From the NCBI GenBank assembly GCA_029261275.1, contig JAJDBR010000012.1, positions 1-34,106 of the forward strand: DNA of 34,106 nucleotides. The letters run 5' to 3'. Positions within the stretch are counted from its first letter, which is position 1. The number at the start of each line of letters is the position of its first letter. The notes below the pieces were generated by a model. The model ran no database searches, had not been told where the DNA came from, and saw only the letters and a program-made list of their open reading frames with translations. Source of the stretch: Nitrospirales bacterium. Its GTDB lineage: Bacteria > Nitrospirota > Nitrospiria > Nitrospirales > UBA8639. Shown one piece after another: positions 8,682 to 31,534 of the stretch. The position numbers were made by a program, and so were the translations under genes.

Positions 8682-10070
8682 ATGCGCGCGACGATATTTG
8701 TGACGGATGATGATGAAGTGGTTCGCCAGGCCATTAGCCGACGATTAGCGAAGCGTCAACACGAAATTCGCAGTTTTGATTCGGGCGAAGCGTTGCTCGT
8801 CGCCTTGGATTCTGATGTGCCTGATATTATCTTCTTGGACTTAAAAATGTCTGGTATGAGTGGGCTTGAAACTCTCAAGCATGTCCGATCTAAAACCCAA
8901 CAAGCCCTCGTCATTTTACTTACCGCCTATGGCACTGTGGAAGATGCAGTCGAGGCCATGCGACTGGGTGCCTATGATTTTCTCATCAAAAGCGTTGATT
9001 TGTCGGGTGTCGAACCTGTTATCGATCGAGCGTTGGAATACTTGACCTTACGCCGTCGGATCGATTTTGAAACACAAGATCGTCCGGGCCGTTATGCCTT
9101 ACAGAGCTTGGTTTCCAACAGTCCCAGCATGAGAGAGCTGGTTGGGCAGATTCAAGAGATGACCAAAAATCATAAGACCACGGTATTGTTGTTTGGAGAA
9201 ACCGGAACTGGAAAAGAGTTTGTTGCTCGGGTGCTGCATCATAATGGGCCTCGGGCTCAGGGGCCATTTGTAGGCGTGAATTGTACGGCCATTCCTCAAG
9301 AATTATTTGAAAGCGAGCTGTTTGGCTATGAGCGCGGCGCATTTACTGGAGCCAATCAACGGAAACCGGGGCTTTGTGAACAGGCGGAAGGCGGGACACT
9401 CTTTCTGGATGAGATTGGCGATCTCAACCCCACAATGCAAGCGAAACTTCTTCGGGTGCTTCAGGAACGGTCATTTAAACGCTTGGGAGGGCGTCAAGAT
9501 ATAGATGTTGATTTCCGGTTGATTGCTGCCACCAATCGCGATCTCCGAAAAGAGGTGGCGCAAGGGACATTCCGTGAGGATCTCTTTTTCCGGTTACATG
9601 TCGTATCACTAGATCTTCCACCTTTACGGAATCGAATTGAAGATATCCTTCCGCTGAGTGTGCAAACCCTGCTTCATCACAGTAAGGACTTGGGGAAAGA
9701 TGTGAAGGAGATTGATTCCGAAGCCCAGCAGTTATTGGAACGCTATCCCTATCCGGGGAATATCCGGGAATTACAAAATATTATTGAACGGGCGGTGATC
9801 TTTTGCCGGGGACAGAGTTTAACGAGTGGGGATCTCCCGCGTGAAGTTCAAGAAGTGGTACATTCAGCGGTGAATGTCGTGACGCAGGGGGATCAACCGA
9901 TGGTGCGTATTGAAATGAAGCTGGGAGAGCATTCGTTGGGGGACATTGAAAATACCCTGATTGAGGAAGTGATGCGTGTCTCTGATTTCAATAAAAGTCT
10001 CGCTGCCAAACATTTGGGGATTACTCGATTTGCCCTCGACCGACGACTCAAAAAACAATCTGATGTCTGA
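8682..10070 (+). CDS. Sigma-54-dependent NtrC-family response regulator
   Basis: A 462-residue regulator with three domains. The receiver (about 1-120) has the acidic pocket TDDDE, the phospho-acceptor D53 in IIFLDLKMSGMSG and a conserved threonine in LLTAYGT. The usual lysine is present in LIKSVD. The AAA+ domain (about 140-380) has Walker A GETGTGKE (172-179), GAFTGA (219-224, the sigma-54 contact loop), Walker B GGTLFLDEIGDL and an arginine-finger region. A Fis-type helix-turn-helix ends the protein (VMRVSDFNKSLAAKHLGITR). It should activate sigma-54 promoters after phosphorylation by the upstream kinase. ATG at 8682 follows the kinase stop by three bases. Its targets cannot be identified, and I saw no convincing -24/-12 element in the window. 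Confidence 0.96.
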   Translation: MRATIFVTDDDEVVRQAISRRLAKRQHEIRSFDSGEALLVALDSDVPDIIFLDLKMSGMSGLETLKHVRSKTQQALVILLTAYGTVEDAVEAMRLGAYDFLIKSVDLSGVEPVIDRALEYLTLRRRIDFETQDRPGRYALQSLVSNSPSMRELVGQIQEMTKNHKTTVLLFGETGTGKEFVARVLHHNGPRAQGPFVGVNCTAIPQELFESELFGYERGAFTGANQRKPGLCEQAEGGTLFLDEIGDLNPTMQAKLLRVLQERSFKRLGGRQDIDVDFRLIAATNRDLRKEVAQGTFREDLFFRLHVVSLDLPPLRNRIEDILPLSVQTLLHHSKDLGKDVKEIDSEAQQLLERYPYPGNIRELQNIIERAVIFCRGQSLTSGDLPREVQEVVHSAVNVVTQGDQPMVRIEMKLGEHSLGDIENTLIEEVMRVSDFNKSLAAKHLGITRFALDRRLKKQSDV

Positions 10071-10101
10071 GCCTTCGAAGTCGATGGCATTCCATCCCAT
10101 T

Positions 10102-10197
10102 CTAGCGGGAAGATTTTTTGCGACTTTTTAGCAACACGATTACTCCAATGACACCAATGGCAATCGCTAGAAATCCGAGTAATTCTAAGCCTCCCAT
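10102..10197 (-). CDS. 31-residue single-helix membrane peptide
   Basis: A short frame on the minus strand from ATG 10197 to TAG. The start is preceded by GGAG at eight bases, a good ribosome site. The peptide begins MGGLELLGFLAIAIGVIGVI, continues VLL, and ends in a strongly basic tail KSRKKSSR. That pattern predicts one transmembrane helix with the C-terminus in the cytoplasm. It lies 41 bases downstream of the DCC-family gene on the same strand, probably in one transcript. The combination of ribosome site, membrane topology and operon position argues for a real gene. I do not know its function. Confidence 0.6.
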   Translation of the reverse strand: MGGLELLGFLAIAIGVIGVIVLLKSRKKSSR

Positions 10198-10238
10198 ATT
10201 CTTGTCTCCGTAGTGGTGAATCTTCGCCAAGCTAGATA

Positions 10239-10760
10239 TTAAACGTGTGCCACTTCTTCTTGGGTATCCCCAGGTGAGTGAAGGGGTAAGGCGATCCTAT
10301 CCAATGAAATATTATAGAGAAAACGATCTTGGTATTCTTGTGGAGGACGATAGCAAGTTGTGAGGGTTCCTCTGAGTTGATACCGATAGTGAGTCATGAG
10401 GTCATAGACCCAGTCTCGGAGGGGTTTCGGAATCAGAATGAAGACATACAGCATACGCCAGAGACCGCCAAGGTGATGTATAAGGTGTAAGGCTGCAGTA
10501 GATTTAGTCAAGTATCCATCGGGGTTGATCACCACAAATGTTGAAAACGCCTTCTGCGGCAGTTCATATTTGGTGAGCACTTGTTGTCCTAGAGGATACT
10601 GAAGTGGCGCGAATCGAAACCGTTTGTTCGTATCGTGTTGGATGAGAAAACGGACCCATCCCGTGCACCATCCGCAGATCCCATCAAACAGAATCAGCCA
10701 CTGGGGTTGAGGTAATTGTTCTGAGGGTTGTTTTTTCCTCATAAGACGTCTTTCAGCCAA
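10239..10760 (-). CDS. DCC-family thiol-disulfide oxidoreductase-like protein (DUF393)
   Basis: A 173-residue protein with the family signature near the N-terminus: LILFDGICGWCTGWVRFL contains the D26-x2-C29-x2-C32 arrangement that names the DCC family. The following RFRFAPLQYPLGQQVL and the ALHLIHHLGGLW segment are also typical. DCC proteins have a predicted thioredoxin-like redox fold, but their substrates are mostly unknown. A moderately hydrophobic helix near 95-115 (GGLWRMLYVFILIPKPL) may associate with the membrane. The longest frame starts at TTG 10760; ATG seven codons in (10742) is a plausible alternative, and neither has a strong ribosome site. It is divergent from priA and followed by the 31-residue membrane peptide. 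Confidence 0.85.
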   Translation of the reverse strand: MAERRLMRKKQPSEQLPQPQWLILFDGICGWCTGWVRFLIQHDTNKRFRFAPLQYPLGQQVLTKYELPQKAFSTFVVINPDGYLTKSTAALHLIHHLGGLWRMLYVFILIPKPLRDWVYDLMTHYRYQLRGTLTTCYRPPQEYQDRFLYNISLDRIALPLHSPGDTQEEVAHV

Positions 10761-10899
10761 CTCTCAGGGGTCAACATAGCTTGGCACTAGAATGAGCTAT
10801 CTGTCTAGTATTTGAAGGCGGATAGGGAATAGGGAGAAATATTGTGAGGTGTGGCTACAACTGCTAAAATCATTTTCTTCATGAACATCCCGACTTCCC

Positions 10900-13233
10900 A
10901 TGCTTGCTGATGTTGTTCTGCCCAGTCGGCGGTTTCAAGTTTTTACCTATAACATTCCACATCAATTACAGGCCCAGGTCTTTGTTGGGAGCCCTGTTTT
11001 TATTCCCCTAGGTTCATCCGTCATTTCTGGCGTAATTGTTAGGATTTTAGAAGAGTCTGTCCTGCCTTCTGTTCGATCGCTCAATACCAACATTTCATTT
11101 CGTGACATATTATCAGTGGACACGACCTCTGAACATTCGTCGCTGGATCAGAGATTACTCACCTTGGTTGAGCATATTGCAGATTATTACCTAGCCCCGC
11201 TGTCAGCTTGTTTGCGACTCATTGTGCCGCCTCGTGTGTTCAACGTGACCAAACGTTTTCATCTCACCCCAGCTGGTCGTGAGGCGTTGGCTGGTTCGGT
11301 TTTGCCGCAGGAATCGCTGTCTGTGTTGCAGAAGGTGTCACAGGCATCAAATGGGGTACACCGATCATCATTGATTAGGACATTGCCTAAGGCGGCGACT
11401 CAGGTGATGAGTCTCAAAAAACGAGGGTGGATCGAGGAGCGATCAACTTTGCTGGTTAAGTTTTCCGCCAACGCGCAGAAAGGCAAACACCTTCAGACTT
11501 TCTCATCGTTTCCATCCTCATCCTGCGCGATTGGTGATCTTTTCGAGCAGGGTGCCGAGAAATCCCCATTAAGGCCCACAAGCCAACCAGCTCTTTCGGG
11601 AAAATTAAAGATCCTTGCAGATGAGTTAGTGAACGAAAGTCATTCTGGATCGTTTCAGAAACATATTGTGATCGGGCTTGAACATGAACGACATCAGGTT
11701 TTCCAACAAGTCGCATCAAGCCTGTTTCAACGTCGGAAACGGGTGCTGCTTCTAGTTCCCGAGGTCCACCAAGTTGAAGCGATTGTGAAGCAACTACGAA
11801 ACCTATTGAGTGAATCGGTAGAGGCCTATCACGGGAAATTATCGACGCCAATTCGAGCCGAACGTTGGGAAGAGATTCGGCAAGGGCGGGTCCAACTTGT
11901 GGTCGGGACCCGATCGGCCTTGTTTCTTCCTCTTCCGGATCTTGGGTTAATTTGGGTAGATCATGAAGAAGATGCGTCTTATAAGGATGAACGTTTTCCC
12001 TATTATCATGCGTGCGAAGTGGCAAGAATGCGTGGAGCCATTGAGCAGGCTTTGGTGGTGTATGCATCATCTTGCCCATCTCTGGAAACCTATTCCAAAT
12101 TTCGTGAGGAGAGTCAGGAGGATTTTCAGCTTCCCCATCTCAAGAATCTTGACGTACATCTGATTGATATGCGGGATTATGTCTCTGGGACGCTTCTCGC
12201 GCCGCCTTTGTTTGAACGACTGACACAGGTTCTCAATGATGGGCATCAAGCGATTCTGATCCTCAATCGAAAAGGATTTTCTCCGTCCCTCATCTGTCGA
12301 GATTGTGGTCAGGCGCCAAATTGTGAGACGTGTGGTGTCTCGTTACGGCTCTTTCAACGGCCTTCTCGTTTGCTGTGTTCCTATTGCGCAAAATGCCATC
12401 GAACCCCGGAAACGTGTCCTTCCTGTATGGGTACGGTATTTCGATTTTCTGGCGCTGGGACGCAACGACTGGAGGACGAACTTACCAAGGTTTTCCCGTC
12501 TCACAGCCTCTTTCGGTTTGATCGGGATCAGGTGAAAACGGTGGAAGAAGGGGAGAATGTATTCCGCCGATTTCGTCGTGGAGACCTTCGCATTCTCATT
12601 GGAACAGAATTCTTATTGCATCAACCTGATCCTCCATCAGCAAAATTAGTGGCCTTTCCTCAAGCCGATTTGGGTTTGCATCTTCCTGATTTTCGTTCGG
12701 CCGAACGTACATTTCTACTTTTTTCCAAAGCGATGAAATTAGCCCAAGCCAAGTTACCTGATGATGCCTCGTCCGGCGAAGTATTTTTTCAAACGCGTAT
12801 GCCTGCTCATCATGTATTTCAGGCTATGAAGCACCGAGATGCACATCTGTTTTATCAACAGGAATGTGACCTGCGTGAAGCCTTAGCGTATCCACCGGCA
12901 GCGCATCTCCTGTTATTAGTCGTCACTGGGGCACAGGCCATTCGCGTACAACGTGTGGTCGATTTCCTTGAGCAACAGTTGAAAAAATCAGAAGGGCATG
13001 GGGATTGGCCTAAAGGAGGTCACGGAATGTTGGAGTTGCCCATGGTGTTAGGGCCGTTAAGTTCACGGAAGCTGGGACGTCTCAAAAAGAACCGAACCAT
13101 CTTTCTCCTCAAAACGTTTCATTTGGAAGAGACTCAACGACGTCTTAGAAAGATTCAACAAGCGTATGACCAACAGTTTGGAAGAGAGGCAGTGGTGTAT
13201 GAAGTGCATGTCGATCCATTAAACATTCAATAG
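10900..13233 (+). CDS. priA: PriA-like replication restart protein lacking helicase motifs I and VI
   Basis: A 777-residue PriA homologue. The N-terminal 3'-DNA-end-binding domain is evident (residues 1-110, ADVVLPSRRFQVFTYNIP). The helicase region keeps the overall PriA order, but key ATPase motifs are lost. Where GxTGSGKT is expected it reads GLEHERHQ (259-266). The DEEH box is DHEE (354-357). The QVAGRAGR motif VI is replaced by KAMKLAQAK (610-618). The zinc-binding segment survives (CRDC, CETC, CSYC, CPSC), as do GTQRLEDEL and LGLHLPDFRSAERTF and the C-terminal domain. PriA normally loads DnaB at stalled forks. This version probably cannot hydrolyse ATP and may act only as a fork-binding loader, as inferred for actinobacterial PriA. 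The frame is uninterrupted, so this is not simple gene decay. Confidence 0.9.
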   Translation: MLADVVLPSRRFQVFTYNIPHQLQAQVFVGSPVFIPLGSSVISGVIVRILEESVLPSVRSLNTNISFRDILSVDTTSEHSSLDQRLLTLVEHIADYYLAPLSACLRLIVPPRVFNVTKRFHLTPAGREALAGSVLPQESLSVLQKVSQASNGVHRSSLIRTLPKAATQVMSLKKRGWIEERSTLLVKFSANAQKGKHLQTFSSFPSSSCAIGDLFEQGAEKSPLRPTSQPALSGKLKILADELVNESHSGSFQKHIVIGLEHERHQVFQQVASSLFQRRKRVLLLVPEVHQVEAIVKQLRNLLSESVEAYHGKLSTPIRAERWEEIRQGRVQLVVGTRSALFLPLPDLGLIWVDHEEDASYKDERFPYYHACEVARMRGAIEQALVVYASSCPSLETYSKFREESQEDFQLPHLKNLDVHLIDMRDYVSGTLLAPPLFERLTQVLNDGHQAILILNRKGFSPSLICRDCGQAPNCETCGVSLRLFQRPSRLLCSYCAKCHRTPETCPSCMGTVFRFSGAGTQRLEDELTKVFPSHSLFRFDRDQVKTVEEGENVFRRFRRGDLRILIGTEFLLHQPDPPSAKLVAFPQADLGLHLPDFRSAERTFLLFSKAMKLAQAKLPDDASSGEVFFQTRMPAHHVFQAMKHRDAHLFYQQECDLREALAYPPAAHLLLLVVTGAQAIRVQRVVDFLEQQLKKSEGHGDWPKGGHGMLELPMVLGPLSSRKLGRLKKNRTIFLLKTFHLEETQRRLRKIQQAYDQQFGREAVVYEVHVDPLNIQ

Positions 13234-13251: not shown

Positions 13252-13689
13252 TTATTTCTTTTTCTTTTTTGATTTTTTCTTGGGAGGCGAAGATGAGGCT
13301 GGTACAGGAAAAGGATGGTGGATGATGGGTCCCTGTATGCGTTTGTAAATCCCGTAGGCGAAGGTCATCCAAAACACGCCAGAGAAGAGACCAAGGATCA
13401 CCGCAGGAAAAATATTTTCCATTTCCTCCATTGTTGGCTCCCGGCCTAGTTTTTGGAGGTCTGTCACTTGCATCATGGCCCAGGCCATGCTTTCGACTCC
13501 TAATAATAAGGTGCAAATTGCCCAAATATATCCGATGGATGGGCATTTCCAGGCTAGCAAAATTGCTAGGCCAATGCCCATGGCGATTCCAATTGGTATG
13601 GGTAATGCACCAATTAACAGCCAGAGCCCCACCGTCACCGCTAAGCTGCCTAAAACAGCATTCACTTGAAGCCACAGATTGTTATTCAT
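13252..13689 (-). CDS. Small multi-pass membrane protein with lysine-rich tail
   Basis: A 145-residue protein with about four hydrophobic helices: roughly 8-28, 30-46 (IPIGIAMGIGLAILLAW), 50-70 (IGYIWAICTLLLGVESMAWA) and 93-113 (FPAVILGLFSGVFWMTFAYG). It ends in a basic tail, KKKSKKKKK, which would sit in the cytoplasm. AGGAG lies about 11 bases before ATG 13689. An equally long overlapping frame (13238-13675) lacks these features and is a shadow. The gene lies downstream of the beta-helix gene on the same strand and converges with priA. I do not recognise a family with known function. Confidence 0.75.
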   Translation of the reverse strand: MNNNLWLQVNAVLGSLAVTVGLWLLIGALPIPIGIAMGIGLAILLAWKCPSIGYIWAICTLLLGVESMAWAMMQVTDLQKLGREPTMEEMENIFPAVILGLFSGVFWMTFAYGIYKRIQGPIIHHPFPVPASSSPPKKKSKKKKK

Positions 13690-19981: not shown

Positions 19982-21607
19982 ATGACGGAAGTTCCACGAG
20001 GGAATATTGCCAATCTTTCCAAAAACTGGCGAGAAGACATGCTTTCCGGTTTTCTCGTGTTTCTGATTGCTCTTCCACTTTGCTTAGGTATTTCACTCGC
20101 CTGTGGTTATCCCGCTATTTCCGGCATCTTTACCGCGATCATTGGGGGGATGTTAGCAACCTTTTTTAGTAATTCTGAATTGACCATCAAAGGCCCGGCT
20201 GCCGGACTGATCGTCATCGCGATTGGGTGTGTGACGGAGTTTGGGTTTACTGGTGGACAAGATCCTGAAGCCGATCTGCAAGCCTATCGTTTAGCTTTAG
20301 GTGTAGGTGTGGTAGCAGGCGGAATTCAAATTTTGTTTGGAGTTTTTCGAGCTGGAATTCTAGGAGAATTTTTCCCAAGTTCGGCGGTACATGGGCTGTT
20401 GGCGGCCATCGGCATCATCATCATGGCCAAACAATTTCCCATTGCTATGGGAGTGAGTCCTGAGGGCACACCGCTGGAGTTGATCGCCAAAATACCTCAG
20501 TTCGTGATGGAGATGAATCCTCTTGTTGGACTCATTGGGATCATCAGCCTCATCATCCTGTTTGGCTATCTCTTGATCAAGAATCCAAAACTCAAAGTCA
20601 TTCCTGCCCCCATGATGGTCCTGCTCGTCACGGTTCCCCTTGCGATGTATTTCAATTTTAGTCAAGAGCACACCTATTCATTTCGTGGCCAAGAATATTC
20701 GTTGGGGAAACACTTTCTGGTTGCCGTTCCAGAGAATATGTTTAGTGCCATTACGTTCCCTGATTTTTCTGGATTGATGACAGCGGTTGGTTGGAAGTAT
20801 GTGGTCATGTTCGCCCTTATAGGAAGTATCGAATCCTTATTGAGTGCTAAGGCCATCGACGGCATTGATCCCTGGAAGCGAAAAACAAATCATGATCAAG
20901 ATATGTTAGCAGTGGGAGCGGGGAATACTCTTGCAGCATTTGTTGGTGGTTTGCCGATGATATCAGAAATCGTGCGCAGTAAGGCCAATATCGACAACGG
21001 GGCGCGGACAAGATTCGCCAACGCGTTTCATGGGATGTTTTTGTTACTGTTTGTGGCGTTGGTGCCGGGACTGATCAATCAGATTCCTCTTGCGGCGTTG
21101 GGAGCGATGCTGGTCTTTACAGGATTTCGTCTGGCCTCTCCTCAAGAATTTATTCACATGTACCATGTGGGTCGTGAGCAATTTCTTATCTTTGTTTCAA
21201 CGGTTTTTGGTGTGTTGGCCACGGATCTCTTGATGGGCATCGCCATTGGGATCTGTGTCAATTTTGTTATCCATCTTAAAAATGGTGCTCCGGCAAAGAC
21301 ATTATTTAAGCCACAGGTTAGTGTTGAGCGAGGAGCAAAAACAGGCGTGACGGTGAAGGTCAAAGATTCCGCGATTTTTAGCACGTGGATTGGGTTAAAA
21401 CAGGCATTGGATAGTCTTTCAGAAGAAACACATGTAGTCCTCGACTTATCAGACACCGTCCTGGTCGATCATACAACGATGTCGAAACTTCACGAATTGG
21501 AAAAAGAGTATGAAGAGAGGGGAGCGATCCTGGAAATCACAGGACTCGATCACCATTTACCCTTGTCGCATCATCCTGATGGAGAGAGGAGAAAAGTCAA
21601 GATATGA
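19982..21607 (+). CDS. SulP-family anion transporter with STAS domain, probable bicarbonate transporter
   Basis: A 541-residue inner-membrane protein with about 12-14 hydrophobic segments and a C-terminal STAS domain (about 460-530, THVVLDLSDTVLVDHTTMSK). Typical SulP features are SGFLVFLIALPLCLGISLAC near the N-terminus, the IKGPAAGLIV segment, GSIESLLSAKAIDGIDPWKR, and VGGLPMISEIVRSKANIDNG, which is the equivalent of the family's SLSRTAVN-like region. SulP members carry sulfate, bicarbonate or other anions. This branch is often found next to carbonic anhydrase or carbon-uptake genes. The neighbouring DabA and MpsC genes here make bicarbonate the best guess, with Na+ coupling possible as in BicA. 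The ribosome site CGGAG lies nine bases before ATG 19982. It ends 32 bases before the convergent DUF2294 gene. Confidence 0.9.
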   Translation: MTEVPRGNIANLSKNWREDMLSGFLVFLIALPLCLGISLACGYPAISGIFTAIIGGMLATFFSNSELTIKGPAAGLIVIAIGCVTEFGFTGGQDPEADLQAYRLALGVGVVAGGIQILFGVFRAGILGEFFPSSAVHGLLAAIGIIIMAKQFPIAMGVSPEGTPLELIAKIPQFVMEMNPLVGLIGIISLIILFGYLLIKNPKLKVIPAPMMVLLVTVPLAMYFNFSQEHTYSFRGQEYSLGKHFLVAVPENMFSAITFPDFSGLMTAVGWKYVVMFALIGSIESLLSAKAIDGIDPWKRKTNHDQDMLAVGAGNTLAAFVGGLPMISEIVRSKANIDNGARTRFANAFHGMFLLLFVALVPGLINQIPLAALGAMLVFTGFRLASPQEFIHMYHVGREQFLIFVSTVFGVLATDLLMGIAIGICVNFVIHLKNGAPAKTLFKPQVSVERGAKTGVTVKVKDSAIFSTWIGLKQALDSLSEETHVVLDLSDTVLVDHTTMSKLHELEKEYEERGAILEITGLDHHLPLSHHPDGERRKVKI

Positions 21608-22109: not shown

Positions 22110-25100
22110 ATGATGAAAATGTTTACTGAATCGATTCTCCCAACGACACCAATACTCTCGGTTGAGGAGAGAAACCATGTGCGGCAAGTGGTCCAGGCGG
22201 CCAGTGAGCTGATTGCCCCGTTTTGGCCAATGCGAACCATGGTCGCTCAAAACCCCATTCATGGCCTGGAATATTTGCCGTTTGATGAGGCAGTTCAACA
22301 AGGGAAAGATCTTCTTGGGGGAAATGGGTATCTGCCGAATGATGAGTATAGGCAATTGTATCGAGATGGAAGGATATCCACGCAAAATATTCAACGGGCG
22401 TTTGCTCGTATGGGCCCTCGTGCAGATTCAACAGATTCTATTCAGATCGGGAATCTTCTGTTATTTGCCCGTGATATATGGCAATGGCATCTAGTTGTTG
22501 GGTTCGAGGAGTTAGAGCCTGTTCTTTTGCAATGGGAACTGAGTGGGGGTGGAGCGACTCAACAGTTTCGTTCAGACCTATCAAGTGAATCAAAACATCG
22601 AATTATTCAACGGACGATTCAGGAATGTGAGAAGTGCAGAGATTGTCCGGAAGAGGCCTACCTGACAAATCTGTGGAAGGCCACATTATCCGTACTGGGC
22701 TTAGATGATTCTGCCCGTGACGAGAATGCTTCTGACGAGCATGACCAAATACGACCCTTGCCTGTAGAAAGAGAAAAACCCCATGTGAATATTGATTTGC
22801 CAGCTCACCGAACGGTCAGTGATTGGGTCGAACGTTTGAGTGGCGATTCCTTGGTCGAGCAAATCAATAATCAAATGATTAAATGGATTGCAGCCTTTGT
22901 TGACGAGGGGTTAGCCGGGTGGGAAATGCCACTTAGGAACAAAGGCTTTTTTCGGGCCTGGAAGGACTTGTCGCAATGGGATCAATCGGGCCATTTCTTA
23001 GGAATTCATCAGTTCCATCAAAAAGTTCAGAATTTGCCTGATGACCCTGAAGACTGCATTGCCGGGTGTTTGCATCGCCTCCGTATTCCCCAGTCACAGT
23101 GGAAAGCCTATCTTTCAAGAGAGCTGTCCCAATTGCCAGGGTGGACGAGGTACATTCGCTGGCTGGGAGAACATCCCCTCTATCATGCGCAACGGAAACA
23201 TCCGATTGATACCGGACAATATCTAGCCGTTTGGTTGTTTTATGAAGTAGAGCTGACTCAGGTTATCTGTCAACGAGAATGGAGCATTGATGGAACCGTT
23301 GAGGCACTGAAATTATACTGGGATGAGCGTCCGGGGGAATATGATGAGCGAATGGGAAAAAGTGGTCATGCCGTTGATGCCAAAACGCAGGCGATGTGTC
23401 GGGACGCCTGGCGCCTGTTTCATCTTGCACAATGTTTAGAGGTCTCGCCTATAGAAATGCATGACCTCTCAGCAGGAGATGCTCAGAAATTATTGAATTG
23501 GTTGAATGCCTTTCCGTTTGATCTTCATGGCCCGGTGTGGCTTGAGGCCTATGAAGATAATTTTCGAGAAGCCCTTCTGCAAAAACTCGCTGTACATCGT
23601 GGTGTAGCCAAGAGCGTAGACATTTGTGCCAGAGCGCAGCTGGTGTTTTGTATTGATGTGCGATCGGAGTCTTTCCGCCGCCACATCGAAAAGCAGGGCT
23701 CATATGATACGTTCGGTTTTGCGGGGTTCTTTGGCATTCCAATGAGTCATCAAGCATTTGATAGCGAGGAACGATCTGATTTATGCCCGGTACTCCTTTC
23801 TCCAAAACATGCTGTGACTGAGGTTCCTCGAATGGGGGAGGAACAGTCGTTGGAGAAATACTCCGCAGGATCACGATGGAGTCAACTCGGGCACCATTTG
23901 TTCCATGATCTGAAGCGCAACCCTGTTGGGTCCCTCATGGTGATTGATGTGCTTGGGTTATTCTTTAGCCTAGGACTCCTAGGAAAAACGTTAATCCTTA
24001 AACCCTACTATGCCATAACTTCTTGGATTGATAGGTGGTTTGCCAGCCCGGTTTCTACTCAGATAGCTGTGTCTTCCCCATCTGACCCCATGAATGTTCG
24101 TGGGGATGATGTTCCCGCAGACGGGATTCCCCAAGAGATGGGCCAAGGATTCTCTGTTTCCGAGAAGGCGACCTTTATTGAAAATGGCCTACGTGCGATG
24201 GGACTCACGAATCACTTTGGCCGACTGATTGTGCTCTGTGGTCATGGGGGTGAGACTGACAACAATCCCTATTATGGGGCGTTGGATTGCGGAGCATGTG
24301 GAGGGAATCCTGGAGATGCCAATGCCCGCGTTTTTGCCGCTTTGGCAAATCATCAAGACGTTCGTCGTATCTTGAAAGAAAATGGATTAAACATTCCCAA
24401 CGATACGTGGTTTCTGCCTGCCAAACATAACACGACGACTGATCGAGTCACATTTTATGATGGAGAAGACCTTCCTAACAGTCACGCGGAAGATTTGCAG
24501 CAGTTGATGAATGATTTGGAAAAGGCAGGAGCCCAGCAAGCGTTGGAACGATGTCGTCGTATTCCACGGGCGCCAACTGCGATCTCTCCGGAAAAAGCGT
24601 TTGCCCATGTGGAAGAACGGAGTATGGATTGGGCCAGTTCTCGTCCGGAATGGGGACTGGCGGGAAATGCCGCATTTTTAATCGGGAGACGAAGTCTCAC
24701 AAAAGGGCTTGATTTAGGGGGGCGGGTGTTCTTGCATTCATATGATCCCATAGCCGACCCTGAAGGTGGCATCCTCGAAAAAATCATGACGGCTCCGTTG
24801 ATCGTTGGAGAATGGATTAACACCGGGTATTACTTTTCTGGCGCGGATCCCTGGCATTATGGAAGTGGCAGCAAAGTCATTCACAATGTAGTGGGTGGTG
24901 TAGGGGTCATGCTCGGAAGCCAAAGTGATTTGCAAATGGGGTTTCCCTTGCAAACGGTCAATAATGGGGATATTCATTTTCATGAACCTATGCGGCTGTT
25001 GGCTATTATTGAGGCGAAGAGGATGGTGATCTCATCTATTATTCAAAAGCATGAGATTCTTCAACAACTGTTTCATAATGGGTGGCTAAATTTGGTGGCC

Positions 25101-25172
25101 TTAGATCCCACGACTTTTGAATATCATCGGTATGAACTTGATGCGACATGGGTATCAGCAAGCCCAGTATAG
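22110..25172 (+). CDS. dabA: DabA (DUF2309), beta-carbonic-anhydrase-like subunit of an inorganic-carbon pump
   Basis: A 1020-residue DUF2309 protein. The N-terminal region has the family block APFWPMRTMVAQNPIHGLEY. The zinc site seen in characterised DabA is conserved: C514 and D516 in VFCIDVRSESFRR, H712 in LCGHGGETDNNPYYGALDCG, and C727 fifteen residues later, the same H-to-C spacing as in Halothiobacillus DabA. Other family signatures are FGFAGFFGIPM and FLPAKHNTTTD. DabA is a cytoplasmic-face protein that, with the NuoL-like DabB, hydrates CO2 in a direction driven by the cation gradient and so accumulates bicarbonate. One moderately hydrophobic stretch (VGSLMVIDVLGLFFSLGLLG) may contact the membrane. 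It is longer than many homologues. No DabB gene is adjacent; the nearest NuoL-like gene lies 4 kb downstream in the Mrp cluster. Confidence 0.95.
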   Translation: MMKMFTESILPTTPILSVEERNHVRQVVQAASELIAPFWPMRTMVAQNPIHGLEYLPFDEAVQQGKDLLGGNGYLPNDEYRQLYRDGRISTQNIQRAFARMGPRADSTDSIQIGNLLLFARDIWQWHLVVGFEELEPVLLQWELSGGGATQQFRSDLSSESKHRIIQRTIQECEKCRDCPEEAYLTNLWKATLSVLGLDDSARDENASDEHDQIRPLPVEREKPHVNIDLPAHRTVSDWVERLSGDSLVEQINNQMIKWIAAFVDEGLAGWEMPLRNKGFFRAWKDLSQWDQSGHFLGIHQFHQKVQNLPDDPEDCIAGCLHRLRIPQSQWKAYLSRELSQLPGWTRYIRWLGEHPLYHAQRKHPIDTGQYLAVWLFYEVELTQVICQREWSIDGTVEALKLYWDERPGEYDERMGKSGHAVDAKTQAMCRDAWRLFHLAQCLEVSPIEMHDLSAGDAQKLLNWLNAFPFDLHGPVWLEAYEDNFREALLQKLAVHRGVAKSVDICARAQLVFCIDVRSESFRRHIEKQGSYDTFGFAGFFGIPMSHQAFDSEERSDLCPVLLSPKHAVTEVPRMGEEQSLEKYSAGSRWSQLGHHLFHDLKRNPVGSLMVIDVLGLFFSLGLLGKTLILKPYYAITSWIDRWFASPVSTQIAVSSPSDPMNVRGDDVPADGIPQEMGQGFSVSEKATFIENGLRAMGLTNHFGRLIVLCGHGGETDNNPYYGALDCGACGGNPGDANARVFAALANHQDVRRILKENGLNIPNDTWFLPAKHNTTTDRVTFYDGEDLPNSHAEDLQQLMNDLEKAGAQQALERCRRIPRAPTAISPEKAFAHVEERSMDWASSRPEWGLAGNAAFLIGRRSLTKGLDLGGRVFLHSYDPIADPEGGILEKIMTAPLIVGEWINTGYYFSGADPWHYGSGSKVIHNVVGGVGVMLGSQSDLQMGFPLQTVNNGDIHFHEPMRLLAIIEAKRMVISSIIQKHEILQQLFHNGWLNLVALDPTTFEYHRYELDATWVSASPV

Positions 25173-25486: not shown

Positions 25487-25981
25487 ATGAGACCTGTATC
25501 TTCACAATTCCTTATCCTGAAGACGGCAGCGTTATTTGGAATGTGGATCATGCTGTCGGCCCAATTTAATCCTTTTCACCTGGGGTTAGGTCTTCTTCTC
25601 TCGTTTCTTGTTGCATGGATTAATTCTGGGCATTCCCCGTTTGTTCCTCGATTTCAGCTGTGGGGAAGAATTTTTTTATATATTCCTTGGCTGTTTTTAA
25701 GAATTGTGCAAAGCAGCCTGCATCTCACTAGACTCATTCTTGATCCGCGCCTCCCCATTCATCCCCGACTCATCCGTTATGAATCAAAATTACAAGAACC
25801 TCCTGCAGTTGTTCTTCTTGGAAATTCCATCACGTTAACGCCTGGCACGATTACCGCTGAAGTGAATGGCCAGGTGCTTTTGGTGCATGCGATGGATGAG
25901 GTGTCGGGTGAAGATGTTACGAGTGGACGACTGGAAGCAAAAATTGCCCAGGTCTTTGGTGAAAGAGACTCAGGAGCATGA
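25487..25981 (+). CDS. mrpE: Mrp-type cation antiporter subunit E
   Basis: A 164-residue MnhE/MrpE-family protein. Two to three N-terminal helices (LKTAALFGMWIMLSAQFNPF, HLGLGLLLSFLVAWI, IFLYIPWLFLRIVQSSLHLT) are followed by the conserved cytoplasmic part: LLGNSITLTPGTITAEVNGQ and VLLVHAMDE. The NSITLTPGT block is diagnostic. MrpE is needed for assembly and activity of the hetero-oligomeric Mrp Na+(K+)/H+ antiporter. It is the first gene of a nine-gene cluster and overlaps mrpF by four bases (ATGA). No obvious ribosome site precedes the ATG. Confidence 0.92.
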   Translation: MRPVSSQFLILKTAALFGMWIMLSAQFNPFHLGLGLLLSFLVAWINSGHSPFVPRFQLWGRIFLYIPWLFLRIVQSSLHLTRLILDPRLPIHPRLIRYESKLQEPPAVVLLGNSITLTPGTITAEVNGQVLLVHAMDEVSGEDVTSGRLEAKIAQVFGERDSGA

Positions 25982-26244
25982 CGACATTTTTCTTGTTTGT
26001 CTCATTGGTGCTCGCCGCATTGATTGGCGCCTATTTATTTCGTGTGCTTAAAGGGCCGACTATCTTTGATCGGGTATTGGGACTCAATGGGATTTCCACC
26101 AAAGCGATCATCTTGTTGATCGTGATTGGGATTGTGTTTGAACGAGTCGAGATGTTCATCGATATTTCCACCGGCTATGCTCTCTTAAATCTTGTTGGGG
26201 CTTTGGCCGTAGCTAAATACTTGGAACAAAAAGGCCTGCCGTAA
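25978..26244 (+). CDS. mrpF: Mrp-type cation antiporter subunit F
   Basis: An 88-residue MrpF/MnhF-family protein with three hydrophobic helices. The signature RVLKGPTIFDRVLGLNGIST is the family's RxxxGPTxxDRxxxxN block, followed by KAIILLIVIGIVFERVEMFI and DISTGYALLNLVGALAVAKY. The FIDIS aspartate is the family's typical acidic membrane residue. MrpF sits between the E and G subunits in the membrane domain of the antiporter. Its ATG overlaps the end of mrpE, and it ends one base before the mrpG start, so translation is probably coupled. Confidence 0.93.
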   Translation: MTTFFLFVSLVLAALIGAYLFRVLKGPTIFDRVLGLNGISTKAIILLIVIGIVFERVEMFIDISTGYALLNLVGALAVAKYLEQKGLP

Positions 26245-26245
26245 C

Positions 26246-26545
26246 ATGGACATACTGGCTGTCATTTTCATTATCGCTGGATTATTTTTTCTGATTGTGG
26301 CAGCCATCGGCGTCATCCGACTACCCGATGTCTTTACACGATCGCATGCTGTCTCATTGACAGATTCGTTAGGTGCTTTTCTCTTGTTAATTGGGATTGC
26401 GATGTATGAGGGACTGAGTATGAATGTCTTGAAGATTTTAGCTGTTTTATCGTTGCTGTATCTTCAAAATCCAGTGATTTCTCATGCCACCTTAAGGGCC
26501 GCGGTACGAGCCGGCTTGAAACCCTGGAAAGAAAAGGCTTCATGA
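26246..26545 (+). CDS. mrpG: Mrp-type cation antiporter subunit G
   Basis: A 99-residue MrpG/MnhG-family protein with three transmembrane helices. The conserved block IGVIRLPDVFTRSHAVSLTD corresponds to the family's G..R.PD...R.HA....TLG motif. The last helix region is followed by QNPVISHATLRAAVRAGLKP, the usual P.(S/A)HA.. motif near the C-terminus. It starts one base after the mrpF stop and overlaps the next gene by four bases. In the Mrp complex, MrpG packs against E and F and is required for cation transport. Confidence 0.93.
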   Translation: MDILAVIFIIAGLFFLIVAAIGVIRLPDVFTRSHAVSLTDSLGAFLLLIGIAMYEGLSMNVLKILAVLSLLYLQNPVISHATLRAAVRAGLKPWKEKAS

Positions 26546-27072
26546 GCTTCGTCTTCGAAATCTCACTCTTGCTTCTACTGTTGGTGACGGCGGCAGGGGC
26601 CATACTCGTGAAAGATTTGATGAGCGCGATATTGCTCTTGGGCTGTTATAGCTTTTTTCTTTCGGTTGTCTGGGCTTGGATGGGAGCCGTAGATGTGGCG
26701 TTTGTCGAGGCAGTCGTTGGGGCCGGGTTGGCCACGGTTCTGTTTTTACTTACTCTCTTTGGTACGCAACCGAAAGATGTGAGGCTTCGTCGACCTCCCC
26801 CTCCAATTGCTGCTCTTATTGGGCTTCCGCTTTTAGGTGTCTTGATGCTGTATGCGGCGAAGGATCTCCCGGCGTTTGGAGATCCGGCTTCGCCACCCAG
26901 TGTCCGTATTTCTCCGTCTTATCTCCAACAGAGCTATCAAGATACGCGAACGCCGAATGTGGTCACGTCTGTTCTTATGGATTATCGTTCACTGGATACG
27001 ATGGTTGAAACGGTCGTGATCTTTACCGCAGGGATAGCCTGCGCCTTTATATTGAGGAGAAAGACCTTATGA
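26542..27072 (+). CDS. MbhD/MbhE-like fused subunit (equivalent of the MrpA C-terminal domains)
   Basis: A 176-residue membrane protein combining two small domains normally found at the C-terminus of MrpA or as separate MbhD and MbhE proteins. Residues 1-80 form a DUF4040 (MbhD-like) unit: AAGAILVKDLMSAILLLGCY followed by AFVEAVVGAGLATVLFLLTL. Residues about 90-176 form an MbhE-like unit ending in YRSLDTMVETVVIFTAGIAC. Because the NuoL-like gene downstream is separate, this protein supplies the missing MrpA tail in trans. It overlaps its neighbours on both sides by four bases. The gene order E-F-G-(D/E)-B-C-D resembles membrane-bound hydrogenase/Mrp-type modules more than the classical A-to-G Mrp operon. 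Confidence 0.85.
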   Translation: MSFVFEISLLLLLLVTAAGAILVKDLMSAILLLGCYSFFLSVVWAWMGAVDVAFVEAVVGAGLATVLFLLTLFGTQPKDVRLRRPPPPIAALIGLPLLGVLMLYAAKDLPAFGDPASPPSVRISPSYLQQSYQDTRTPNVVTSVLMDYRSLDTMVETVVIFTAGIACAFILRRKTL

Positions 27073-27521
27073 TTCAACCCCATGACAGTATCATAGTGCA
27101 ATCGTTGGGTCGGTTTCTCATTCCTGTGATTCAAATTTTTGGATTATACGTCTTGTTTTTTGGTCAATATGGGCCTGGCGGAGGTTTTGTAGGCGGGGTG
27201 ATTCTCGGGACCAGTATGCTGCTCGCGGTTTTGATTTTTGGCCATGATGCTTCCCGCAGTCAGTTAGCCAAGAAGGTCCTACATGGAGATGGAGTCGGCA
27301 TGCTGATCTATGCGGGTGTAGGAGGGTTATGTTTGATTGGAGGCGGAGAGTTTCTCAACTATGCCAATTTGGAAATTCCTGGTCTTGAGATTTCTGCACG
27401 GCGTTCCTTGGGCATTGTTCTGACACAAATCGGTGTGGCCGTGGACGTGGCGGTGACAGCCATCTCCATTGTGTTCAGTTTATCAGCCCAAGAGATTATC
27501 GAGGATTCATTGAATGGTTGA
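27069..27521 (+). CDS. mrpB: Mrp-type cation antiporter subunit B (MnhB domain)
   Basis: A 150-residue MnhB-domain protein with four helices. The diagnostic GQYGPGGGFVGGVILGTSML corresponds to the family's G...PGGGF.GG motif, and a preceding FGLYVLFFGQ helix is also typical. The second half contains GGEFLNYANLEIPGLEISAR and a last helix GVAVDVAVTAISIVFSLSAQ. MrpB is part of the core membrane domain. Its ATG overlaps the end of the previous gene (ATGA), and its end overlaps mrpC by eight bases, so it is translated as part of the same unit. Confidence 0.93.
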   Translation: MIQPHDSIIVQSLGRFLIPVIQIFGLYVLFFGQYGPGGGFVGGVILGTSMLLAVLIFGHDASRSQLAKKVLHGDGVGMLIYAGVGGLCLIGGGEFLNYANLEIPGLEISARRSLGIVLTQIGVAVDVAVTAISIVFSLSAQEIIEDSLNG

Positions 27522-27891
27522 GGTCTTTGCCGCGATCTTTGAACGCCCCAATTTTTTGACCTTTGTCGTTATTTTTTTGTGGGGGTTTTATATCATGGTC
27601 ACCAGATACAATCTCGTGAAAAAACTGGTGGGTATGTATCTGGTTCAAACGAGTGTGATTTTTTTCCTGGTATCGATTAGCGCGAAAAAAGGTGCGACGG
27701 TTCCCATCTTGCTTTCGCCCACAGCTTCTGTTCAGGCCATTGATTATGTCAATCCCTTACCGCATGTGATGACGTTAACCGCCATTGTTGTTGGTGTGGC
27801 CACTCTGGGTGTCGCTCTTGCCTTATGCTCTGCCATTTACCGGACGTATGGCAGTCTTGATGAAGAAGAGATTTTGAAGAAGTTAGAATGA
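27514..27891 (+). CDS. mrpC: Mrp-type cation antiporter subunit C (NuoK-like)
   Basis: A 125-residue NuoK/MrpC-family protein with three transmembrane helices. Helix 1 (FVVIFLWGFYIMVTRYNLVK) is followed by the KKLVGMYLVQTSVIFFLVSI helix. The NPLPHVMTLTAIVVGVATLG block is diagnostic: the P.P.A(L/M).LTAIVI motif precedes helix 3. MrpC corresponds to NuoK of complex I and lies next to MrpD. The glutamates typical of NuoK are not obvious, as in most MrpC. It overlaps mrpB by eight bases and mrpD by four. Confidence 0.92.
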   Translation: MVEVFAAIFERPNFLTFVVIFLWGFYIMVTRYNLVKKLVGMYLVQTSVIFFLVSISAKKGATVPILLSPTASVQAIDYVNPLPHVMTLTAIVVGVATLGVALALCSAIYRTYGSLDEEEILKKLE

Positions 27892-29357
27892 GCCGACATT
27901 TACCAGCCCTTCTTTTCCTTGTTCCATTGTTTGCCGCGATTTCGATGCCTATCGTCTGTTTGCGGCATAGGGCATGGAGTCGTTCCATTGCCTTAAGCGT
28001 GCTTTGTAGCATGGTGGTGTTCTCCATCATGAATCTCGTCAATATCTTTCAACATGGCGAGATCCACTATGCGTTTAGTGGCTGGCCTCCGCCGCTAGGG
28101 ATTGAATGGGTGGCGGATGGATTAGCCAGTGTGGTGTTAGTGGCATTGAGCCTTTTAGGTTTGGTGACATTGATTTTTGCAGGGCCAACATCGCCAAAAG
28201 ATTTAGGGGGACGTATTGTTCATTATTACACCCTCATCTTGCTGTTGATTTCGGCGCTTACCGGCATTGTATTCGCTGGCGACCTGTTTAACCTGTTTGT
28301 CTTTCTGGAAGTCGCGGCGTTAGCCAGTTATGCCCTTGTCGGCGTGGCTGGCGGAAAAGCCCTTATGGCTGCCTTTCGTTATCTTATCTTGGGAACGTTA
28401 GGTGCTTCTCTCTATTTATTAGGGGTGAGTTACTTCTATGCCGAGACCGGAACGTTGAATATGGCAGATATGGCGGAGCAACTTCCGCATTTATTGACCT
28501 CCAAGGCGGTTCTAGGAGGTCTTCTTTTCATGTTCATAGGATTGGGAATTAAGATGGCTTTGGTGCCATTTCATGCGTGGCTTCCTGATGCCTATACCCA
28601 TGCTCCAGATTCTGTTACTCCAATTTTAGCGGCACTGGTAACCAAGGTGGCTCTCTTAGGATGGGTGCGAATTATGTTTTGGGTGCTTGGGATAAAAGTT
28701 GCGGTGGATGACACCCCCGTCCTGTTACTCGTGGGACTACTGGGCTCACTGGCAGCAGTTATTGGCGCTGTTCTCGCCTTGACACAACAGGATTTAAAAA
28801 GAATGTTTGCCTATGGCGGTATTTCGCATATCGGCATCATTCTTATTGGGGTGAGTCAAGGCAACCAAACGGGGTTTGTAGGAGGGGTGTTCTACTTATT
28901 AAATGATGCTGTGATGCAGGCGTCCTTATTTTTTATCGCTGGGGTGGCAATCAGCCTCTATGGAGTATACACCATAGAGGATGTGGGACGAATAGCAAAG
29001 CAATCTCCTTTGTTAACGTCGGCCCTTGTCATAGCAGCCATGGGGATGATTGGGCTTCCACCAACGGGTGGGTTTTTTGGGAAATGGTATATCATTCTCG
29101 GTGCGCTTGAAGCCAACAATTATGTCGCTGTGGGAGCCGTGTTGCTTTCGACCATGCTGACTCTGGCTTATTTTGTCAGAATTTTTGAACGGGTCTTTCG
29201 TCATGCCCCAACGTTGTCAGATGCGAGACCTATTGAAATCCCTATCCAGATAAAATTGAGTGTAGGGTTCACATCTATGGCGATCATAGTCTTAGGGTTA
29301 TTGAGCGATCCCATTGTGGGATTGTTGATTGACCATACGTTACCGCCAGGTCTTTGA
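27888..29357 (+). CDS. mrpD: Mrp-type cation antiporter subunit D (NuoN/M-like)
   Basis: A 489-residue antiporter-like subunit (Proton_antipo_M family) with about 14 helices. The channel motifs are present: the acidic helix NLFVFLEVAALASYALVGVA (E on TM5), ALVPFHAWLPDAYTHAPDSV followed by TPILAALVTKVALLGWVR (the TM7-8 lysine), and QQDLKRMFAYGGISHIGIIL. These lysine and glutamate residues form the half-channels of complex-I-type proton pumps. The 'WLPDAYTHAP' version is typical of MrpD rather than NuoM. Overlap with mrpC and the following gene is four bases each. Together with the NuoL- and NuoM-like genes it gives the cluster three antiporter-like subunits. Confidence 0.93.
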   Translation: MSRHLPALLFLVPLFAAISMPIVCLRHRAWSRSIALSVLCSMVVFSIMNLVNIFQHGEIHYAFSGWPPPLGIEWVADGLASVVLVALSLLGLVTLIFAGPTSPKDLGGRIVHYYTLILLLISALTGIVFAGDLFNLFVFLEVAALASYALVGVAGGKALMAAFRYLILGTLGASLYLLGVSYFYAETGTLNMADMAEQLPHLLTSKAVLGGLLFMFIGLGIKMALVPFHAWLPDAYTHAPDSVTPILAALVTKVALLGWVRIMFWVLGIKVAVDDTPVLLLVGLLGSLAAVIGAVLALTQQDLKRMFAYGGISHIGIILIGVSQGNQTGFVGGVFYLLNDAVMQASLFFIAGVAISLYGVYTIEDVGRIAKQSPLLTSALVIAAMGMIGLPPTGGFFGKWYIILGALEANNYVAVGAVLLSTMLTLAYFVRIFERVFRHAPTLSDARPIEIPIQIKLSVGFTSMAIIVLGLLSDPIVGLLIDHTLPPGL

Positions 29358-31453
29358 AGGTGATGATGTCCATATTTGTCTTGATTCCTCTGTGCCCTCT
29401 CATCGCAGCAGTCGTCTTGTCCTTGGGGGGACGGCGATGGGGAGATCAGGGGCACCGAATCGGAATTCCTGCTATGGGCCTTTCATTCGCCCTTTCCCTT
29501 TACGCATTCTTTGAAGTGGTAACAAGCGGACCGATCTCGATCTCACTCTACCGATTGATGCAAGCTGGCTCTCTCGTTGTTGACCTCAATTTATACATAG
29601 ATCAGCTTACGGTCCTTCTCCTGATTTTGGTGACCGGGGTGAGTAGCGTCGTGCATGTCTTTTCCTCGCGATACATGATTGGGGACCCTCGTTACAATCG
29701 GTTCTTTGCGGTCATCGCGTTGTTTACCTTTTCGATGTTGATGTTGGTCATGAGCGGGAATCTGCTGATGCTCTATGTCTTTTGGGAGGTGATGGGGCTG
29801 TGTTCATACCTGTTGATTTCTCATTGGGCCCAACGCAAACCGGCGATCCAAGCCGCCACCAAAGCATTCATTGTCAATGCGATTGCGGATGTGGGATTGG
29901 GATTTGGAATTATCTTGACCTTTGCGACATTTGGCACCCTCGATATTCAGACGATTTTGGCTCAAGCTGAAGGCCTACAGGATCACACCATCAATCTATT
30001 TTGGTGGCTTGGTATGGAATACCATATCCACCCGATCACGATCATCCCGTTCTTTTTGTTTGTGGGCGCGATGGGGAAATCTGCGCAATTGCCCTTTCAT
30101 GTATGGCTCCCGTTTGCGATGGAAGCCCCTACTCCTGTTTCTGCACTCATTCACGCCGCGACAATGGTAAATGCAGGCCCATTCTTATTAGTTCGCATGA
30201 GTCCATTACTCATGTTATCGCCGGAGGCGATGACATTTATCGCGATCGTCGGAGGGGCAACTGCCTTGTTTGCGGCAATGGTATCAATGGTCCAATCTGA
30301 TATCAAAAAAAATCTGGCGTATTCCACGATCAGTCAGATTGGGTTCATGATCATGTTATGTGGAATAGGAGCCTTTGTTGCAGCTATCTTCCACTTACTG
30401 GCCCATGGGTTTCTGAAGGCCTTTTTATTCTTGTCCACCGGAAATGCATTACAAGCGGTACACACCAATCATCACGCAGCAAATCCTCACTCTAGCCATT
30501 CGAATCCAAAAACATCATTGTATGTGGGGGCTTTGGTGTTAGCCTGCTTGCCTCCCTTTGTTATATTTTCTGGGCCCTACGAAGGTGTATGGGTCGCCAA
30601 TGGATTTGGGTCAGCCAGGATAGTTTTTTGGCTCATAGGCTTGGCTACGGTCTTCTTTACGGCAATCTATCTTTTTCGTGGAATCATGCTTCTCTTTCAG
30701 CATGGGCCAACAATTCCCAATGTTGAAAAAGGCGGTACTGTCACGATCAAGCCTCAGTTATTTTCTCCCAAGCATGTTTTCCCACTGATTCTGGTCGGCG
30801 GGGTGATGGCCTATCTGCTCATGGTCATCTGGACATGGTTGGTTGAATTTCTCGCTCCTGCTTTGCCTGTATCCTCATTATTGGGCGCAGAGGTGACAGT
30901 AACGACTGCCAGTTCATGGTGGATGTTGTTGCCAGTTGGAGTGGCAATTGGCGGATGGATGTATGCCATGGCTGGACAGAGGCCCAGGGCTCAGGTGCAC
31001 TCTGAAGAGGCTGACTGGAAGAGGGCTTTATATGTGCTTTTTCTTCATAAGGGGTATTTTGACGAATGGTACGAAGTCTATTTTGTCCAACCGACACTTC
31101 GCTTTGCCAATTGGTTGTGGCGGATTGTGGATATTCGTGGATTCGATCGGGTCGTTCACTCGGTCGCTTCTTCTTCTCTTCTGTTGGCAAGTTGGTTATG
31201 GCGAGTGATCGATATTAAAGGTATCGATCGAATGGTCGTAGGTCTGGGAGGATCCAGTGTGGGACTTGGACGTTGGTTGTGGCGTGTGGTCGATGTTCGC
31301 TGGTTGAGCTATAACGTGAGGCAAATTTTAAAGGGTGCAGATGTGGCAGGCCAGATCCTCCAAGAGACGGAAACTCGTACCATTCAACATCATCTGCTCG
31401 TCATGGTGTTTTGGCTGGTGTCGGCTATTTGCCTCTTGTATTTCTTGGTGTAA
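29354..31453 (+). CDS. NuoL/MrpA-N/DabB-like antiporter subunit with repeat-bearing C-terminus
   Basis: A 699-residue NuoL-type protein. An N-terminal Proton_antipo_N region (DLNLYIDQLTVLLLILVTGV) is followed by the Proton_antipo_M core: MLYVFWEVMGLCSYLLISHW (TM5 glutamate), QLPFHVWLPFAMEAPTPVSA, LIHAATMVNAGPFLLVRMSP and QSDIKKNLAYSTISQIGFMI. 'WLPFAM' replaces the usual 'WLPDAM'. A histidine-rich loop (VHTNHHAANPHSSHSN) lies near 375-390. The C-terminus has the NuoL-type segment HKGYFDEWYEVYFVQP and then an unusual 27-residue repeat (WLWRIVDIRGFDR, WLWRVIDIKGIDR, WLWRVVDVRW) before a last helix. It could stand in for MrpA's N-terminal domain or be the DabB partner of the upstream DabA. It overlaps mrpD by four bases. 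Confidence 0.9.
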   Translation: MKVMMSIFVLIPLCPLIAAVVLSLGGRRWGDQGHRIGIPAMGLSFALSLYAFFEVVTSGPISISLYRLMQAGSLVVDLNLYIDQLTVLLLILVTGVSSVVHVFSSRYMIGDPRYNRFFAVIALFTFSMLMLVMSGNLLMLYVFWEVMGLCSYLLISHWAQRKPAIQAATKAFIVNAIADVGLGFGIILTFATFGTLDIQTILAQAEGLQDHTINLFWWLGMEYHIHPITIIPFFLFVGAMGKSAQLPFHVWLPFAMEAPTPVSALIHAATMVNAGPFLLVRMSPLLMLSPEAMTFIAIVGGATALFAAMVSMVQSDIKKNLAYSTISQIGFMIMLCGIGAFVAAIFHLLAHGFLKAFLFLSTGNALQAVHTNHHAANPHSSHSNPKTSLYVGALVLACLPPFVIFSGPYEGVWVANGFGSARIVFWLIGLATVFFTAIYLFRGIMLLFQHGPTIPNVEKGGTVTIKPQLFSPKHVFPLILVGGVMAYLLMVIWTWLVEFLAPALPVSSLLGAEVTVTTASSWWMLLPVGVAIGGWMYAMAGQRPRAQVHSEEADWKRALYVLFLHKGYFDEWYEVYFVQPTLRFANWLWRIVDIRGFDRVVHSVASSSLLLASWLWRVIDIKGIDRMVVGLGGSSVGLGRWLWRVVDVRWLSYNVRQILKGADVAGQILQETETRTIQHHLLVMVFWLVSAICLLYFLV
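31109..31309 (+). repeat. 27-residue (81-base) tandem repeat within the NuoL-like gene
   Basis: Units begin at 31109, 31190 and 31271, with exact 81-base periodicity. Each encodes xWLWR(I/V)(V/I)D(I/V)(R/K); the first two also share G(F/I)DR and a serine/glycine-rich half. The third unit is truncated after about 13 codons. The DNA copies have diverged at many third positions, so the duplication is old and retained at the protein level. Confidence 0.75.
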
Positions 31454-31534
31454 TTCTATGCAGGTTAGCCCTGCACAGCTCGTATGATGCCGTAAGGGCA
31501 GTGATTGAAATCGATCAACCTTTGTGAGGTATGT
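31454..31534 (+). other. Intercistronic hairpin between NuoL- and NuoM-like genes
   Basis: TGCAGG (31459-31464) and CCTGCA (31470-31475) form a hairpin with a five-base loop. GCCCT (31468-31472) can alternatively pair with AGGGC further on (31495-31499). This is the only real gap (81 bases) in the cluster. The structure might adjust the relative amounts of the two proteins; there is no T-run, so it is not a terminator. Confidence 0.3.

Follow-up and report, generated by a model that had tools for sequence, protein, structure and literature searches.

The PriA protein encoded in the window, the term used here for the whole analysed stretch of 34,106 nucleotides from a Nitrospirales bacterium (contig JAJDBR010000012.1), is very probably an ATPase-dead pseudohelicase that descends from an active helicase, is the cell's sole PriA, and is selected as a fork-recognition and recruitment factor in replication restart. 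All ATP-contacting motifs are lost, the gene is single-copy and under purifying selection, the DNA-binding and zinc domains are kept, DciA is present, and the loss is fixed across the order, with at least one further independent loss. We infer fork binding, a partnership with DnaB and DciA, and the absence of ATPase activity.

Motifs and domains of the Nitrospirales PriA

The priA gene begins with ATG and its frame is unbroken. The product scores 363 bits against the PriA family model TIGR00595 (cut-off 230), as a full-length PriA does, while the NF004066 model aligns over residues 10-776 with a score under its strict cut-off. The N-terminal 3′ DNA-binding domain (3′BD) is recognized by PF17764 (E = 5e-14, 52 bits against a cut-off of 22.7), and E. 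coli and Klebsiella PriA chains match the product at E of about 1e-63. Walker A, Walker B, and the motif VI arginines, which mark an active PriA superfamily 2 (SF2) helicase, are missing; the combination of degenerate helicase motifs with conserved DNA-binding domains is that of a PriA pseudohelicase. The features of the gene are as follows.

10900..13233, forward strand: whole priA gene, predicted pseudohelicase of 777 aa (family model, PDB-chain matches, and predicted fold)
10909..11229, forward strand: 3′ DNA-binding domain, residues 4-110, kept (PF17764; identity unchanged at matched RpoB distance)
11605..11607, forward strand: position of the Q-motif glutamine (E. coli Q203), here Leu236 (glutamine in 99% of intact PriAs vs 1% of the window group)
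11674..11697, forward strand: former motif I/Walker A, GLEHERHQ, residues 259-266, one residue shorter than intact (alignment; two-residue loop in the model)
11905..11919, forward strand: motif Ib, GTRSA, residues 336-340, kept (G, R, S, and A columns 86-98% retained in the window group)
11959..11970, forward strand: former motif II/Walker B, DHEE, residues 354-357, with His at the catalytic Glu position (E321 column 99% intact vs 10% window group)
12064..12081, forward strand: former motif III, ASSCPS, residues 389-394, intact GSATP having become ASSCP (T358 column 99% intact vs 0%)
12295..12426, forward strand: cysteine-rich zinc region (CRR), residues 466-509, eight Cys kept (99-100% in intact and lost groups)
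12601..12630, forward strand: former motif V, GTEFLLHQPD (intact GTQMxxKGHD), residues 568-577 (K544 column 99% intact vs 0%)
12688..12708, forward strand: DFRSAER, residues 597-603, in lobe 2 right before motif VI, kept (D, F, R, and E columns 91-99% retained)
12727..12753, forward strand: former motif VI (arginine finger), KAMKLAQAK, residues 610-618 (all five conserved QVAGRAGR columns lost)
12835..13230, forward strand: C-terminal domain (CTD), residues 646-777, kept (invariant F651, E655, R659, P665, P666, G718, P719)

The original prediction had read GLEHERHQ, DHEE, and KAMKLAQAK in an open frame of 777 codons, all of which are correct. Its list of lost motifs (I, II, and VI) holds for those three and is incomplete, as the Q-motif glutamine and motifs III and V are also gone. 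These losses are concentrated in the motor. In 78 intact PriAs, 124 columns reach a conservation of at least 85%, and a column is counted as lost when less than 20% retained in the window group, which comprises 108 sequences, some being the same genome fetched twice. Twenty-eight of the 124 are lost: 22 of 36 in the ATP/helicase motifs vs 6 of 88 elsewhere (Fisher p = 4e-10), with the 22 falling in the Q motif and motifs I, Ia, II, III, V, and VI. The eight zinc cysteines, most of GTRSA, DFRSAER, the 3′BD tyrosines, and the CTD prolines are 86-100% retained, in line with the earlier claim that the 3′-end-binding, zinc, and C-terminal regions stay conserved. The zinc region in lobe 2, with its eight cysteines, is that of a PriA; the CRR histidines at E. 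coli positions 455 and 464 are lost in the Nitrospirales group. At two loci of family f4 (L047 and L049) motif II is an intact DEEH while motifs I and VI are lost, a state that is an intermediate stage of erosion.

The AlphaFold model of the protein has a mean pLDDT of 82.7 and a pTM of 0.83, with pLDDT above 90 around the former Walker A. Only two residues connect strand 253-258, the first of lobe 1, to helix 261-277, too few for a P-loop, and the protein is predicted to lack one. The best PDB matches of the model are 6dgd, 8fak, 4nl4, and 6dcr, with Foldseek TM scores of 0.66-0.68 by query and E values down to 1.6e-45.

A gene on the reverse strand (13252-13689), tail-to-tail with priA, encodes a predicted membrane protein of 145 aa with no Pfam match; by tblastn on the flanks retrieved, it lies beside priA in 56 of 68 loci of families f1-f3, and no such neighbour of priA turned up in the remainder of the class or phylum. 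On the forward strand at 22110-25172 and 25487-33040, a DabA-type inorganic carbon transporter gene is followed by genes for Mrp-like antiporter subunits, and a SulP transporter gene lies upstream (19982-21607). An animal-type haem peroxidase (PF03098, 546 bits) is encoded at 587-2248 on the reverse strand, in a bacterium.

Domain-wise divergence and selection

The comparison that discriminates best among the explanations is made domain by domain. At matched RpoB distance, lobe 1 has an identity of 0.58 among intact PriAs and 0.34 in the window group, and lobe 2 drops from 0.55 to 0.38, so that the extra conservation of the former motor lobes is gone. The 3′BD is unchanged (0.35 vs 0.34); the CRR declines from 0.49 to only 0.42 and the CTD from 0.37 to 0.29. 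A second losing branch repeats the drop in the lobes, with identities of 0.38 and 0.31. Such a pattern is what a motor freed from constraint inside an otherwise kept protein is expected to leave, not a decaying gene. The divergence of the CTD may indicate that part of the protein-interaction surface of PriA has changed. Omega of close PriA pairs is 0.12-0.38 and, pooled by region, 0.16-0.39, with lobe 2 lowest; the intact lineages yielded one usable pair, so these values are not compared between intact and lost proteins.

One copy of priA and no second one was found in the window's genome, which is 90% complete, a count that comes from a search of assembled genomes. The original prediction had named a second, intact priA, with this copy under relaxed selection, as the evidence that would speak against it; no second priA was found in that genome and omega is well below 1. 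Its central claim of an ATPase-dead PriA kept for other functions is well supported by the single priA, the purifying selection, the relaxation in the motor lobes, and the retention of the CRR and 3′BD, to the extent that sequences can speak to activity. A sequencing frame error as the cause of the motif loss is ruled out, as the frame is unbroken and 19 congeners agree.

Two other explanations of the eroded motor are set against this reading. One is that PriA is turning dispensable in the order, with a frame still open since the loss is recent; in its favour, the median PriA/RpoB divergence ratio is 5.35 in losing lineages vs 2.54 in intact ones, about twice as fast. Within the genus (8682-13233, loci L186-L195) priA also outpaces its neighbours, with PriA at 42%, an NtrC-like regulator at 78%, and small neighbours at 63-69% in L195, and seven genomes of the order have no PriA match above helicase background, which fits a dispensable gene unless it reflects an assembly gap. 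Such decay is nonetheless very unlikely, given the open frame in every full-length copy read from four families, an omega well below 1 in every region, the 90-99% retention of the eight cysteines and of dozens of DNA-binding and CTD columns, and the synteny kept around priA. It is equally improbable that nucleotide is bound or hydrolysed at a non-canonical site by a residual or remodelled ATPase. Against it, the single substitution K230R abolishes E. coli PriA activity (PMC4504706), the model contains no P-loop, and several losses coincide: the Lys and Thr of Walker A, the Q motif, the Lys of motif V, and every arginine of motif VI. The acidic residues of motif II are partly kept (DHEE or QEED, with DEEH intact in f4), making very weak or non-canonical nucleotide binding conceivable, and GTRSA and the lobe architecture persist.

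Distribution and number of motor losses

PriA was read from 19 further genomes of the genus, the remaining members of the order (67 genomes in total across families f1-f4), eleven other families of the class, and eighteen families of the phylum. Named relatives were recovered with an alignment-based contig scan, a single-protein query having returned none. Walker A is present in none of the 67 genomes read from the four families of the order, which rules out a pseudogene or an accident of one genome. It is also missing in the sister family f8 (6 sequences), in single genomes of f6 and f10, and in a second branch of the phylum comprising nine families. It is kept in class families f5, f7, f9, and f11-f15 (15 sequences), in phylum families f16-f18, f20-f24, and f26 (14 sequences), and in 49 PriAs that the named-genome search retrieved, almost all of which belong to other phyla. 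Among named records, the closest are Nitrospirales metagenome-assembled genomes (MAGs), and the eroded set takes in Nitrospira, including a MAG labelled Nitrospira lenta. Judged by these motifs, motor loss has become fixed in the whole order and in some sister families, and it has arisen again in other parts of the phylum. The earlier proposal of an independent loss in this lineage is thus confirmed as to the loss by alignment with other Nitrospirota and corrected as to its extent, which is order-wide and recurrent in the phylum.

No PriA above general helicase background was found in seven genomes of the same order (G020, G040, G053, G099, G153, G186, and G202) or in two of the same class (G074 and G080). 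Some of these assemblies are 90-99% complete (G099 is 2.0 Mb and 99% complete), and they represent either assembly gaps or real priA losses. Genome G075 has a second priA-like gene with one in-frame TGA (G075:C53:7368-8894, reverse strand), its other copy being on a different contig; the second gene may be contamination.

On an RpoB tree of 41 rows, with G221 left out, the intact/lost label needs four changes, three of them forced by well-supported branches. Forcing every loser into a single clade is rejected (AU p = 8e-6), so at least two independent motor losses in the phylum are secure. Three or four are plausible: a clade of the order with f8 and f6 is not rejected (p = 0.18), nor, strictly, is one that adds f10 (p = 0.07). 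A single ancestral loss, or a single pseudohelicase priA spread by horizontal transfer, would do without convergence and would account for the quick PriA tree (63 rows), in which all lost sequences are joined with an SH-aLRT of 88, graded as weak support. This scenario is nevertheless quite unlikely in view of the RpoB rejection and of the careful PriA tree (32 rows), which separates the two main losing clades on starred branches and places intact f26 as sister to the second. Many rows of the PriA trees have odd composition and long branches, and the joining of losers in the 63-row tree is probably a long-branch effect. In the 32-row analysis, class families f1-f15 as one PriA clade are not rejected (p = 0.22). 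The count of losses is taken from RpoB and the careful PriA tree.

Restart partners, known systems, and a proposed role

DciA is present in 43 of 43 genomes tested, whether PriA is intact or eroded. It may permit motor loss; because it also occurs in intact-motor lineages, DciA alone does not explain the loss. The original prediction had proposed a search for a second PriA, PriB/DnaT, or a DnaD-type loader; in the genomes sampled, no DnaD/DnaB_2-type protein, no PriC, and no PriB above cut-off was found. Matches to PriB_gamma were rejected as PriB, all being below cut-off and SSB-like. The DnaC/IstB matches in the same genomes comprise one IS21-helper-like protein and weak AAA+ matches, with no chromosomal DnaC found beyond the IS21 helper.

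Actinobacterial PriA (NCBIfam PRK14873) is also described as lacking helicase motifs, and the original prediction took it as precedent. A search of the open literature found no account of an actinobacterial PriA without motifs, and the window PriA falls outside that group, scoring 58-149 bits with the PRK14873 models vs 363-424 with the general models PRK05580 and TIGR00595. A better precedent is Deinococcus-Thermus: D. radiodurans PriA, an orthologue whose Walker A and B are degenerate, neither hydrolyses ATP nor unwinds DNA and still binds single-stranded DNA (ssDNA), forks, and DnaB (PMC4504706; Lopper 2015). It is non-catalytic by biochemistry, whereas the window PriA is predicted to be so. 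Its Walker A differs by Lys to Arg in a still recognisable motif (PMC4504706); in the window PriA a shortened P-loop can no longer be recognised, and the Q motif has disappeared too, as have motifs III, V, and VI. DciA is found in Deinobacterium and Thermus control genomes, as in the window's lineage. The Nitrospirales loss, in a different phylum, is presumably independent of that in Deinococcus.

E. coli and Klebsiella PriA (6dgd, 4nl4, 8fak) share domain order, fold, the eight-Cys CRR, GTRSA, and DFRSAER with the window PriA. They are, however, active 3′-5′ helicases that work with PriB, DnaT, and DnaC, of which PriB above cut-off and a chromosomal DnaC were not found here. E. coli PriA wraps lagging-strand ssDNA in a pore formed by the CRR, lobe 2, and CTD. 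The ATPase-dead E. coli variants K230R and K230A support restart reactions, K230A supporting DnaB loading in vitro; unlike the natural Nitrospirales lineage, they are laboratory mutants. ATPase/helicase activity has been stated to be unnecessary for E. coli PriA-PriB restart in vivo (PMC10175261). The suggestion that PriA's own helicase is not needed therefore stands as an extension to this lineage and adds no new principle.

In the proposed mechanism, the 3′BD, winged helix, CRR, lobe 2, and CTD would bind an abandoned fork or D-loop whose lagging arm is already single-stranded. The pseudohelicase would keep hold of the ssDNA of the lagging strand and bring in DnaB, probably with a DciA-type loader, and opening of any lagging-strand duplex would fall to a different enzyme or to fork processing. 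A broader proposal, that PriA motor loss is recurrent and can be fixed order-wide (Nitrospirales, including Nitrospira) where DciA-based restart uses already single-stranded forks, is put forward tentatively, with the chances slightly against it.

The Nitrospirales PriA appears to join the known PriA pseudohelicases as an unusually widespread and convergent case. If the broader proposal is true, the role of PriA conserved across bacteria would be to recognise forks and recruit DnaB, and the helicase would be an option, lost at least two times in one phylum. A single documented exception (Deinococcus-Thermus) would become a repeated evolutionary outcome in an ecologically important order that includes Nitrospira. 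Near families with intact and eroded motors would provide a natural comparison for the purpose of the helicase, and the surface kept order-wide (3′BD, CRR, DFRSAER, and CTD) would show which part of PriA is really needed for restart with DciA as the loader.
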